A DNA stretch of 36,553 nt, taken from the NCBI GenBank assembly GCA_019348255.1, contig JAHWJU010000008.1, forward strand, positions 2,490 through 39,042. Direction: 5' to 3'. Positions 32,510-36,540 of this stretch are shown piece after piece (the stretch's first letter is position 1; the number at the start of each line of letters is the position of its first letter). The notes under the pieces are model-generated. The model did not search any database. It was not told the origin of the DNA and saw only the letters and a program-made list of their open reading frames with translations. The position numbers and the translations under genes are program-made. This DNA comes from Actinomycetota bacterium. GTDB lineage: Bacteria; Actinomycetota; Acidimicrobiia; Acidimicrobiales; CADCTF01.

Positions 32510-32582
32510 TCCGGGGTGGCGCAATCGGCAGCGCAGCGCACTGTTAATGCGACGGTTCTGGGTTCGAGTCCCAGCCCCGGAG
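32510..32582 (+). tRNA. tRNA-Asn (anticodon GTT)
   Basis: 73 nt cloverleaf. The acceptor stem TCCGGGG pairs with CCCCGGA; D arm GCGC/GCGC; anticodon loop CTGTTAA with anticodon GTT; T arm CTGGG-TTCGAGT-CCCAG; discriminator G, as in tRNA-Asn. The first anticodon-stem pair (27-43) is a G-A mismatch; the other four pair. CCA is not encoded. Confidence 0.95.
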
Positions 32583-32611
32583 CTTCTACGTCCGACGTCG
32601 AGGCATTCGTA

Positions 32612-32684
32612 GGGCCCGTAGCTCAGTGGTCAGAGCAGGGGACTCATAATCCTTTGGTCGCTGGTTCGATCCCAGCCGGGCCCA
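32612..32684 (+). tRNA. tRNA with CAT anticodon, probably tRNA-Ile2 (lysidine type)
   Basis: 73 nt. The acceptor GGGCCCG pairs perfectly with CGGGCCC; D arm GCTC/GAGC; anticodon loop CTCATAA; T arm GCTGG-TTCGATC-CCAGC; discriminator A. The D loop, anticodon arm and variable loop (AGTGGTCAGAGCA, CTCATAATC, TTGGTCGCTGG) closely follow E. coli ileX. The acceptor keeps C4-G69 and C5-G68, pairs used by TilS to recognise tRNA-Ile2. Elongator Met is the alternative. Two G-T wobble pairs (27-43, 28-42) weaken the anticodon stem. Confidence 0.9.
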
Positions 32685-32731
32685 CCGCCAGGCCCAGGCG
32701 GGTTTGGAATAAGGCGCGGAAGCGTCGCACC

Positions 32732-34333
32732 ATGGAGGGCTGGGCGGGCCCGAGAGAGGTCTCCTTGGTCAGAACATCCGCACGAACGGTCGCCGCCGCC
32801 ATTGTCTTCGTGTTGGCGGTCACGGGGCGGCCCGCCATGGGCCGGGCCGCTTCCCCCGAAGGTCCGGGCGCCACCCCCCGGGCCCAGTGCGGCCCGGGCT
32901 CCGACCCGGAGACGGATCGTCAAGGAAGGGTGAGCAAGGCAGACGTCGACAGTGGACGAGCGGCGCGAGGCTTCAGCTGTAACACCGAGGCCGTCGGGAC
33001 GTACGGGACAAGCGGCGGCTACAAGGTGGAGCGCTACGTCGACGGGGCGGGCCACGAGTGCGCCTACTACGACACGACTCTGCTCTTCCCGAGAGACGCG
33101 GCGGCAGCCGGCCAGGACGGCACCGGCGTGTACGTCCTCGACATGGCCGACCCGGCCGGGCCGGTGCGCACGACATCGCTCGTCACCCCGGCCATGCAGT
33201 CGCCGCATGAATCCATGAGCCTCAACAGCGCCCGGGGACTGCTCGTCGCAGTGACGGCCAATCCCGGGTTCTACCCCGGAGTGATCGACGTCTACGACGT
33301 CACCCAGGACTGCCGGTACCCGGTGCTCAAGTCGAGCGCTCCGATAGCAGGCCTGGGCCACGAAGGCGCCTTCGCCCCCGACGGCCGCACCTACTACTCG
33401 GCGTCGTTCGACGCCGGGGGGAGCCTTCCCGGCGGCGCCCTCACGGCGGTCGACCTGTCGAATCCCTCGGTCCCGGTGTCGCTGTGGACGGGCAACTACC
33501 GCTCCCACGGCCTCTCGGTCAGCGACGACGGCACGCGCGCCTACCTCGCCGACCGCTCAGGGCTGGTGATACTGGACGTCAGCCAGATCCAGTCTCGGGT
33601 CCTGAACCCACAGGTTCGGGAGGTCGCCCGCCTGACCTGGCCGACGAAGAGCACTCCGCAGGTCACCGTCCCCGTCACCGTCGGCGGTCGCCCGTTCCTG
33701 ATCGAGATGGACGAGTTCGCCAGCGGCGACAACGTGGGAGCCGGCCGGATCATCGACATCTCCGACGAGACGAAGCCAGCGGTGATCTCGAACATGAAGC
33801 TCGAGGTCAACCTGGCGGAGAACCGGCCGTCACAGGTGGACGACCCGGGGGCGACGATGATCTACCAGGGCTACGCCGGCCACTACTGCTCGGTTCCGTC
33901 CCGCCAGGATCCCGGGGTGGTCGCCTGTACGTTCATCCTCTCGGGGCTCCGGCTGTTCGACATCAGCGACCCCTATTCGCCCAAGGAGATCGCGTACTTC
34001 AACGCCCCTGTCGACCCAGCCTCCATCAGACCGGGCGGGGTTCCCGGTTCGAACTACGCCATGTCGAGCGCGGTCTTCGTACCCGAGAGGTCCGAGATCT
34101 GGTACTCCGACGGCCACCGGGGCTTTTTCAACATCCGGGTCACCAACGGCGTCTGGCCTGTCCGGCAGCGAGCTCAGCAGGCGCCGACGCCGGCGCCCGA
34201 GCACCCGCTGCCGGACCGTCCGGACCCGGGAGTGCTGCCTTCGACGGGCGAGGGCGGGCCCGTCGTCGGGGCCGCCGCCGCGTTGGCGATGCTCGTGGTG
34301 CTGCGCTCCTTGAGCAGCCGGCTCAGCCGCTGA
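32732..34333 (+). CDS. Secreted LVIVD-repeat protein with LPXTG sorting signal
   Basis: 533 aa. A signal peptide (SARTVAAAIVFVLAVTGRPAMGRA) is followed by LVIVD-type beta-propeller repeats: GVYVLDMADPAGPV, ALTAVDLSNPSVPV, GLVILDVSQIQ, GRIIDISDETKPAV and GLRLFDISDPYSPKEIAYF. The C-terminus is a sortase signal: LPSTG (502-506), a hydrophobic stretch (VVGAAAALAMLVVL) and a basic tail (RSLSSRLSR). So the protein is probably fixed to the cell wall by a sortase, which is not in this window. The start is uncertain: ATG 32732 is listed, but TTG 32765, with GAGAGAGG 5 nt upstream, gives a more compact signal peptide. It follows two tRNA genes. Confidence 0.87.
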   Translation: MEGWAGPREVSLVRTSARTVAAAIVFVLAVTGRPAMGRAASPEGPGATPRAQCGPGSDPETDRQGRVSKADVDSGRAARGFSCNTEAVGTYGTSGGYKVERYVDGAGHECAYYDTTLLFPRDAAAAGQDGTGVYVLDMADPAGPVRTTSLVTPAMQSPHESMSLNSARGLLVAVTANPGFYPGVIDVYDVTQDCRYPVLKSSAPIAGLGHEGAFAPDGRTYYSASFDAGGSLPGGALTAVDLSNPSVPVSLWTGNYRSHGLSVSDDGTRAYLADRSGLVILDVSQIQSRVLNPQVREVARLTWPTKSTPQVTVPVTVGGRPFLIEMDEFASGDNVGAGRIIDISDETKPAVISNMKLEVNLAENRPSQVDDPGATMIYQGYAGHYCSVPSRQDPGVVACTFILSGLRLFDISDPYSPKEIAYFNAPVDPASIRPGGVPGSNYAMSSAVFVPERSEIWYSDGHRGFFNIRVTNGVWPVRQRAQQAPTPAPEHPLPDRPDPGVLPSTGEGGPVVGAAAALAMLVVLRSLSSRLSR

Positions 34334-34957: not shown

Positions 34958-35722
34958 ATGCGTGGCGGAGGAGACATGGTGGCAGTGCTGGAGACGGTGG
35001 CCGGCGCCATCCGAGAGGTGCTCGACGGGCTCGAGGACTGGGGCCTGGCCGGAACCGAGAAGGCGACGCAGTACTACACCGACCTCGCCGCCGACGAGGT
35101 GGCGCTGAAGATCCTGGACGAAGCAGGGTTCGGGGTCCTGAGCGAGGAGTCCGGCCTGCATCATGAGGACCGCGACATCCTGGTCGTGCTGGATCCCGTC
35201 GATGGCTCGACCAACGCCGCACGGGGGATCCCCTGGTTCGCCACCAGCCTCTGCGCTGTCGATGCCGCGGGACCGTCCGCCGCCCTGGTGGTGAACCAGG
35301 CCACCGGGACCAGCTACTCAGCCGTCCGGGGTGATGGTGCCTTCCGCGACGGGCGCCGGATAAGGGCGGCGTCGACCACCGACCTCGGTCGCGCCGTGGT
35401 CGGGGTCTCCGGCTACCCGCACCGGCACCTCGGCTGGAGGCAGTTCCGGGCTCTGGGGGCGGCGGCGCTCGATCTGTGTGCCGTAGCCGATGGGGCGCTC
35501 GATGCCTACATCGATTGCAGTCGCGACGCCCATGGCCCCTGGGACTACCTCGGCGGCCTCCTCATCTGCCAGGAGGCAGGAGCAGTGGTGGCCGACGCAT
35601 GGGATCGAGAGCTCGTCATCGTTGGGCACACCGACCGCCGCACACCGTACGGGGCCGCCACTCAGGCCTTGTTGGAGCAGCTATTGGCGGCCAGGGATCC
35701 CGGTGCCGCAAAAAACGGTTGA
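34958..35722 (+). CDS. Inositol monophosphatase-family phosphatase
   Basis: 254 aa. The metal-binding motifs are EESG (VLSEESGLHHEDRD), LDPVDGSTNAARGIPWFATSL and the C-terminal HGPWDYLGGLLICQEAGAVV. The family includes inositol-1-phosphatase, histidinol-phosphatase and fructose-1,6-bisphosphatase, so the substrate is not fixed by sequence. In actinobacteria inositol-phosphate enzymes feed mycothiol and phosphatidylinositol synthesis. The stop codon overlaps the -35 box of the whiB7-type promoter (35719-35724). Confidence 0.9.
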   Translation: MRGGGDMVAVLETVAGAIREVLDGLEDWGLAGTEKATQYYTDLAADEVALKILDEAGFGVLSEESGLHHEDRDILVVLDPVDGSTNAARGIPWFATSLCAVDAAGPSAALVVNQATGTSYSAVRGDGAFRDGRRIRAASTTDLGRAVVGVSGYPHRHLGWRQFRALGAAALDLCAVADGALDAYIDCSRDAHGPWDYLGGLLICQEAGAVVADAWDRELVIVGHTDRRTPYGAATQALLEQLLAARDPGAAKNG

Positions 35723-35747
35723 CGTGAGGAGCAGCCCGTGGTCGAAT
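35710..35747 (+). promoter_or_regulatory. Candidate WhiB7-autoregulated promoter
   Basis: AAAAAA (35710-35715), three bases (CGG), then TTGACG (35719-35724, five of six -35 bases), a 17-bp spacer and TCGAAT (35742-35747) as a weak -10. WhiB7 of mycobacteria activates its own promoter through an AT-rich patch just before the -35 box; here the A-tract stands out in GC-rich DNA at that position. The predicted start point is near 35754. Confidence 0.5.
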
Positions 35748-35797
35748 CCCGAAAGCCGGGAAGTTCCCGCTGCACGTACCGGAAAGGGCGCCGTCGA

Positions 35798-35977
35798 GTG
35801 CTGATCCGCTGGTCCTACAAGCCGCAGGGCATGGCAGGCATCGGCGCGCTGGCGTGCGTCCCGCCGGTCATTCCCGTTGGGCACCTCGCCGCGGACGGCC
35901 ACATGGGCTTCCACGGCACCCGTGTGCCCAATGGCACCACCGGGCGGCCCGAGGGTCGAGGAGGCGGAACTGGCTAG
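35798..35977 (+). CDS. Upstream ORF in the whiB7-type leader (59 aa, putative)
   Basis: GTG 35798 to TAG 35977, beginning VLIRWSYKPQGMAGIGAL. GGAAAGGG lies about 9 nt before the GTG. GC is high at third codon positions, so the frame looks translated, but the peptide has no known domain. An in-frame GTG at 35738 with GAGGAG six bases upstream would make 79 aa but lies upstream of the predicted start point. The stop codon sits in the loop of a hairpin (35966-35986), and an intrinsic terminator follows 29 bp later. Position suggests a regulatory leader ORF rather than a functional protein; a genuine small protein is the alternative. Confidence 0.5.
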   Translation: MLIRWSYKPQGMAGIGALACVPPVIPVGHLAADGHMGFHGTRVPNGTTGRPEGRGGGTG

Positions 35978-35986
35978 TCCAGTTCC
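35966..35986 (+). promoter_or_regulatory. Leader hairpin enclosing the uORF stop codon
   Basis: GGAACTGG pairs perfectly with CCAGTTCC around the 5-nt loop CTAGT, which holds the uORF stop TAG. Two further pairs are possible past one bulged base (35964-35989). A ribosome ending translation here would melt it, so it can report uORF translation. Confidence 0.6.
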
Positions 35987-36005
35987 CGCAACCTTGAAGG
36001 CCCAG

Positions 36006-36038
36006 AGGCCGCCGGCTCAGCCGGCGGCCTTTTTGTTT
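36006..36038 (+). terminator. Intrinsic terminator, likely attenuator of the whiB7-type gene
   Basis: AGGCCGCCGGC and GCCGGCGGCCT form a perfect 11-bp stem with the loop TCA, followed by TTTT-G-TTT. It is the clearest rho-independent terminator in the window and lies inside the leader, 57 bp before the regulator's start codon. The left arm can alternatively pair with 35943-35949. Confidence 0.9.
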
Positions 36039-36094
36039 CTCCAGGTTCGTGCAAAAGGACAACTTCGGCTCTGAAGAAGAAGGAGGAAGGCGAG

Positions 36095-36397
36095 ATGCTC
36101 GCCGAGTGGAAGGTCGCAACAGCGCAAGAGGAACAGGACTGGACGTCGGCCCGCTGTCGGGATGGCGCGTCGACGATGACGGCGCTGTTCTTCTCCGAGC
36201 AGATCGACGACATCGCGCGGGCGAAGGCGATCTGTCAGCTGTGCCCGCTCCGGGGCCTCTGCCTCGAGGGTGCTCTGCGGCGGAGGGAGCCGTGGGGCGT
36301 CTGGGGTGGCCAGCTCTTCCTCAACGGCAAGATCCTTCCCCAGAAGCGCAAGCGGGGGCGTCCGCCCAAGAACCCCCAGGTGGCACAGTCGGCATAG
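36095..36397 (+). CDS. whiB7: WhiB7-type iron-sulfur transcriptional regulator
   Basis: 100 aa. The four Fe-S cysteines are Cys21, Cys47, Cys50 and Cys56 (CxxCxxxxxC in ICQLCPLRGLC). The sigma-binding turn EPWGVWGG is at 65-72. The C-terminal AT-hook, KRKRGRPPK (84-92), together with QLFLNGKILPQKR, resembles mycobacterial WhiB7 much more than WhiB1-6. WhiB7 binds SigA and AT-rich DNA and turns on intrinsic antibiotic resistance genes. An ideal AAGGAGG (36080-36086) lies 8 nt before the ATG. Upstream are a WhiB7-like promoter, a uORF and a terminator, consistent with attenuation. The regulon in this organism is unknown. Confidence 0.88.
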   Translation: MLAEWKVATAQEEQDWTSARCRDGASTMTALFFSEQIDDIARAKAICQLCPLRGLCLEGALRRREPWGVWGGQLFLNGKILPQKRKRGRPPKNPQVAQSA

Positions 36398-36466: not shown

Positions 36467-36540
36467 GGGCGCTTAGCTCAGCTGGTTAGAGCACCTCCCT
36501 TACAAGGAGGGGGTCGGGGGTTCGAGTCCCTCAGCGCCCA
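36467..36540 (+). tRNA. tRNA-Val (anticodon TAC)
   Basis: 74 nt. The acceptor GGGCGCT pairs with AGCGCCC; D arm GCTC/GAGC; anticodon stem CCTCC/GGAGG around CTTACAA (anticodon TAC); T arm GGGGG-TTCGAGT-CCCTC with one G-T pair; discriminator A. TAGCCT, 9 nt before the 5' end (36452-36457), may be its -10 box. Confidence 0.97.

Follow-up and report, generated by a model that had tools for sequence, protein, structure and literature searches.

A conserved uORF, terminator and overlapping antiterminator precede whiB7 in Acidimicrobiia and very probably form a ribosome-controlled attenuator

Introduction

WhiB7 is a master switch of antibiotic resistance in actinobacteria. In Streptomyces, Lee, Lee and Roe (2022, Mol Microbiol 117:179) reportedly found that translation of an upstream open reading frame (uORF) in the wblC leader favors a terminator and that a block favors an antiterminator. 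Mycobacterial whiB7 is governed in a related manner, as completed uORF translation leads to the terminator whereas blocked translation allows whiB7 to be read (PMC10727445, PMC11550727, PMC13236596, PMC4128351). The promoters of both systems carry a binding site by the -35 element, an AT-rich motif bound by the AT-hook of mycobacterial WhiB7 (PMC3905903) and, three bases upstream of the -35, the sequence GAAAWY bound by Streptomyces WblC (PMC7157823).

Here, we analyze a leader in front of a WhiB7-type gene in a stretch of 36,553 nucleotides of Actinomycetota DNA, referred to below as the window. The original prediction described an attenuator-type leader running from a promoter at the end of a phosphatase gene through a 59-codon uORF, a hairpin around its stop codon and a perfect intrinsic terminator to the Shine-Dalgarno sequence of the regulator. 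All of these parts are present in that order (Table 1), and the attenuator reading gains from an antiterminator overlapping the uORF, which is backed by covariation and synonymous recoding. The host had been called a probable member of the Acidimicrobiia, and its placement in the Acidimicrobiales is borne out by the whole-genome relatives of the 3.0-Mb draft genome.

Table 1. Coordinates of the whiB7 leader and adjoining features in the window.
Feature	Position	Strand	Remarks
Inositol-monophosphatase-family phosphatase	34958..35722	+	Pfam PF00459; neighbor, no part of the switch
WhiB7-dependent-type promoter	35710..35747	+	From comparison with related leaders; overlaps phosphatase stop codon
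Promoter, upstream part	35710-35715; 35719-35724	+	A-rich box AAAAAA, then CGG, then -35 TTGACG
Promoter, downstream part	35742-35747	+	17-nt spacer, then weak -10-like TCGAAT
uORF	35798..35977	+	59 codons; GTG 35798; TAG 35975-35977; peptide VLIRWSYKPQGMAGIGALACVPPVIPVGHLAADGHMGFHGTRVPNGTTGRPEGRGGGTG
Antiterminator stem	35943..36013	+	71 nt; uORF stop codon in apical loop
Antiterminator pairing	35943-35949 with 36007-36013		GGCGGCC with GGCCGCC
Antiterminator pairing	35953-35957 with 35999-36003		GGGTC with GGCCC
Stop hairpin	35964..35989	+	TAG in loop; -14.5 kcal/mol, z -2.7; top of antiterminator
Intrinsic terminator	36004..36038	+	12-bp perfect stem 36005-36031, 3-nt UCA loop, then U-rich tail TTTTTGTTT
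whiB7 Shine-Dalgarno	36080..36086	+	AAGGAGG, from sequence; outside both alternative stems
whiB7 orthologue	36095..36397	+	100 aa; ATG 36095

The whiB7 Gene and Its Neighborhood

The product of 36095-36397 matches the Pfam WhiB family with 53 bits and its closest solved structure is M. tuberculosis WhiB7 (7kif, E 7.6e-17); WhiB1 and WhiB3 match much less well. It has four cysteines, an EPWGVWGG turn and a C-terminal AT-hook, and in an alignment of actinobacterial WhiB7 proteins the columns of EPWGVWGG and of the AT-hook GRP are invariant or nearly so. Judged by these features, the regulator is a WhiB7 orthologue, in keeping with the type first assigned to it. A tRNA-Val gene (36467-36540) lies directly downstream of whiB7, and tRNA-Val is also found close to whiB7 in several relatives. 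In some Acidimicrobiales genomes, WhiB7-like genes number two or three, with a closely spaced pair among them (G006:C1:679964-681171; G133:C1). Further upstream in the window, the 5' part of a long ORF (32516-34333) overlaps two tRNA genes (32510-32684), so that the protein probably starts further into the frame; at its C-terminal end, an LPSTG motif precedes a hydrophobic segment and basic residues, similar to a sortase signal.

The phosphatase gene ends within the -35 element of the whiB7 promoter. The hairpin could be the phosphatase terminator and the uORF a chance frame, with the true whiB7 promoter between 36038 and 36094; the hairpin does lie downstream of the phosphatase, and GC-rich DNA holds many open frames. 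However, a phosphatase upstream of whiB7 was detected in only ~25 related loci, and the terminator therefore belongs to whiB7. Terminator and uORF accompany whiB7 in more than 60 loci without a detected upstream phosphatase, conservation extends to the promoter that separates phosphatase and uORF, and the uORF is under in-frame selection (see below). This explanation is highly improbable, and we reject it on synteny; by the same distribution, the leader is independent of its phosphatase neighbor.

The Promoter and Its WhiB7 Box

In most related leaders, an A/T-rich box is followed after a few bases by TTGAC and then by a spacer, usually of 17–18 nt, and it is this comparison that places a promoter at 35710-35747, at the end of the phosphatase gene as first proposed. 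A scan of the leader for the sigma-70 consensus found no promoter; it missed the whiB7 promoter because the -10 is weak, and comparison revealed it. Transcription is expected to start near 35754. Within the reach of sequence analysis, a start point downstream of 36038, which would have refuted the original prediction, gains no support: the sole promoter backed by comparison is located upstream of the uORF, and no promoter-like site is predicted between the terminator and whiB7.

The box of the window has four of the six letters of the Streptomyces GAAAWY; the G and the closing pyrimidine are missing. The combination of box, -35 and -10, arranged as in the window, occurs a single time in the 3.0-Mb genome, and a strict box (AAAW-N4-TTGAC) occurs only twice, before whiB7 and inside a coding gene (G000; L160). 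A search for a promoter-box regulon in this genome and six relatives returned only whiB7 promoters, besides matches that fall in coding DNA or lack a WhiB7-like arrangement. The WhiB7 regulon may be very small here or may use degenerate boxes; the former reading is prompted by the strict box preceding a gene only once in the genome.

Conservation of the Leader

Approximately 110 loci around WhiB7-like genes were collected and the DNA upstream was read, with 95 Acidimicrobiia loci having enough of it after three duplicates were removed. Conservation of terminator and uORF among relatives, the lack of which would have refuted the original prediction, is extensive: uORF, spacing and terminator are kept in 93 of the 95 loci, 88 by scan and five by reading (L052, from the cultured Ilumatobacter nonamiensis, L057, L064, L091, L102), the related loci being not independent and some near-identical. 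In the 88 loci found by scan, the uORF stop lies 24–39 nt upstream of the terminator, mostly ~32. A uORF stop and such a terminator at such spacing are found once on both strands of the 36.5-kb window, and the layout is absent from the eight further whiB-family loci examined in this genome; by these counts, it exceeds chance. A search of Rfam gave no match above the gathering score, the weak hits being to unrelated sRNA families.

Two relatives are without the leader (L081, L112). In L112, a WhiB7-type promoter (GATAAATCACTTGACG) stands close to the gene and neither terminator nor uORF was found, and it is possible that this locus lost its attenuator. Contigs titled Bifidobacterium breve or Terriglobia (L050, L117, L104) carry an Acidimicrobiia-type WhiB7 with its leader and are probably mislabelled metagenome bins. 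WhiB7 genes from further orders of the class, and from further classes of the phylum, are likewise preceded by leaders of the same layout. Outside the Acidimicrobiia, no similarity between the uORFs is evident by eye, while position, spacing and the GGCCG at the start of the terminator are shared.

The uORF

The uORF of the window has a modest Shine-Dalgarno sequence (AAAGGG, 35783-35788). A longer frame of 79 codons from GTG 35738 was rejected, as the predicted start point lies downstream of that GTG. Relatives have uORFs of ~50–80 codons in 93 of the 95 loci, with starts picked by rule. Over 41 related pairs, which are not independent, the median pN/pS of the uORF body (without the last 16 codons) is 0.55 in frame versus 1.01 and 0.90 out of frame, and on these ratios the body is under in-frame purifying selection. 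Its sequence is nevertheless only loosely conserved and diverges strongly between clades. All uORF bodies are poor in acidic residues (E 1.3%, D 2.4%), alanine makes up 17% of residues and tryptophan occurs in 68 of 76. The uORFs of the nearest clade (the window; L012, L017, L021, L025, L035, L037, L040, L043) have a KPxG motif around residue 8 in common and usually contain one tryptophan.

The composition of the uORF bears on two further explanations. Under amino-acid-specific attenuation of the trp or ilv kind, the uORF would sense a single amino acid such as alanine or tryptophan, which would fit the Ala-rich bodies and the tryptophan that most of them hold, and mycobacterial WhiB7 does answer alanine starvation (cited in PMC11550727, PMC10727445). 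However, neither the window uORF nor those of relatives show clustered codons for a single amino acid directly ahead of the antiterminator strand, the body is loosely conserved, and a long uORF whose switch sits at the far end is suited to stalling at any point along it, leaving amino-acid-specific sensing unlikely. Alternatively, the peptide itself could matter, acting as an arrest peptide or as a small protein whose sequence detects a drug, as in erm leaders. In-frame purifying selection would fit this, as would the recurring KPxG and the single tryptophan of many uORFs; RNA pairing, however, explains the conservation of the C-terminal RPxG, and the body diverges strongly between clades; a peptide sensor is an unlikely explanation.

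Terminator and Antiterminator

The terminator fold (36004-36032) has a predicted energy of -26.4 kcal/mol (z -5.6), with none of 200 shuffles as good. Across 69 distinct sequences, 97.6% of the cells of its stem are paired and double changes occur in seven of 12 pairs; covariation as high was reached in none of 500 shuffles and slid controls were far lower. The hairpin is followed by a terminator U-tract in nearly all loci.

Overlapping this terminator is an antiterminator whose 5' strand is formed by the last 11 uORF codons. Within it, GGCGGCC CGA GGGTC (35943-35957) pairs with GGCCC AGA GGCCGCC (35999-36013), of which the final seven bases also serve as the terminator's 5' arm. The two predicted folds are mutually exclusive. 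The antiterminator reaches -44 to -46 kcal/mol (-44.2, z -4.0) versus -26 for the terminator, although folding energies ignore co-transcriptional kinetics. The stop-codon hairpin of the original prediction is real but not a separate element, as it forms the tip of this 71-nt fold.

The pairing between uORF and terminator is general. At least five of the first eight terminator bases pair with uORF codons in 80 of 88 loci. When the last 15 uORF codons were changed synonymously in these 88 loci, with the peptide kept, the native antiterminator fold was more stable than the average recoded one in 87 (mean z -2.47; -3.54 in the window). Recoding z is also clearly negative in five leaders from other orders or classes (L120, L134, L152, L158, L159). 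Covariation among relatives, looked to from the outset as a mark of a genuine leader, is found in the terminator and in the lower antiterminator helix. Compensatory changes in the latter include GGGCC/GGCCC to GAGCC/GGCTC, and further pair types were the one of five measures in which shuffles scored equally high. Pairs that involve the terminator arm hardly vary and hence say little for or against covariation.

The proximity of these stems to the gene could also suggest translation attenuation, in which the leader hides the whiB7 ribosome-binding site and transcription is not ended. With the Shine-Dalgarno sequence outside both alternative stems and the U-tract so widely kept, we find this scarcely credible.

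Proposed Mechanism

Overall, the leader is very probably a ribosome-controlled transcription attenuator of whiB7. The sequence itself shows its parts and how they are conserved, as well as the two exclusive folds and the selection acting on each. RNA polymerase would start near 35754, at a promoter probably boosted by WhiB7 itself. A ribosome translating the uORF to its stop would cover the last codons and with them the 5' strand of the antiterminator; the GGCCGCC downstream would be free, the terminator would fold and transcription would stop before whiB7, giving a transcript of ~280 nt. If uORF translation were slowed or blocked by an antibiotic, amino-acid shortage or failed initiation, the last uORF codons would instead pair with the 5' arm of the terminator, no terminator would form and whiB7 would be read. 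WhiB7 could then activate its own promoter, amplifying the response. Termination, read-through on stalling and autoactivation are modeled on the mycobacterial and Streptomyces systems, with which every feature of the leader that can be judged from sequence agrees, and by the same analogy we infer induction by antibiotics. As the antiterminator strand is confined to the last 11 of 59 codons, a ribosome stalled almost anywhere along the uORF should switch whiB7 on, which suits a general sensor of translation trouble.

A more specific proposal is that, in Acidimicrobiia, a conserved nascent peptide (KPxG, Trp) tunes the attenuator and the main targets of WhiB7 are its own gene or a very small regulon. 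We hold this to be quite improbable; if true, it would describe a stripped-down sensor, unlike Mycobacterium and Streptomyces with their large resistance regulon.

The Acidimicrobiia, a mostly uncultured class, have retained promoter box, uORF, antiterminator and terminator throughout, and this indicates that ribosome-sensing whiB7 attenuation is an old Actinomycetota trait that reaches beyond mycobacteria and streptomycetes. The ~90 leaders give a consensus, a uORF ending in approximately RPxG with its stop ~32 nt before a GGCCGCCGG terminator, which can guide the annotation of whiB7 leaders where a genome comes without expression data. They also supply natural variation from which the construction of the antiterminator can be worked out.

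Comparison With Known Systems

Among the closest known systems is the leader of mycobacterial whiB7 (M. tuberculosis, M. smegmatis, M. abscessus), with which the present one shares a length of ~350 nt, a uORF, a Rho-independent terminator, a uORF/terminator antiterminator, WhiB7 downstream and an autoregulated promoter with an AT-rich box (PMC4128351, PMC10727445, PMC3905903, PMC13236596). The uORF peptide, however, is not recognizably similar by eye and the terminator sequence differs. With Streptomyces wblC it shares the layout of a uORF-governed switch and a GAAAWY-type box 3 nt upstream of the -35 (PMC7157823). Two presumed Streptomyces leaders (L142, L144) differ in having uORFs of ~105 codons and a GGCCGCGG terminator, and their uORF/terminator stem is not better than synonymous recoding, so that the antiterminator design may differ there.

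More distant parallels exist. The leaders of ARE-ABCF genes (vmlR, are5sc, tiaA) also combine a uORF with a terminator/antiterminator switch, one that answers ribosome-targeting drugs (PMC12421871), but they precede another gene and rely on very short uORFs and start-codon stalling. The ilvB leaders of Mycobacterium and Corynebacterium likewise have uORF, antiterminator and terminator, but sense branched-chain amino acids through specific codons and control a biosynthetic target (PMC13236596, PMC11109978).

In the open literature searched, we found no earlier description of this leader in Acidimicrobiia. Of the suggestion that antibiotic-sensing attenuation would be extended deep into the phylum, the layout holds, while the mechanism itself was already established in Mycobacterium and Streptomyces. 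The kind of switch is thus already known, and the Acidimicrobiia leader is an additional case with an unusually rich comparative record.
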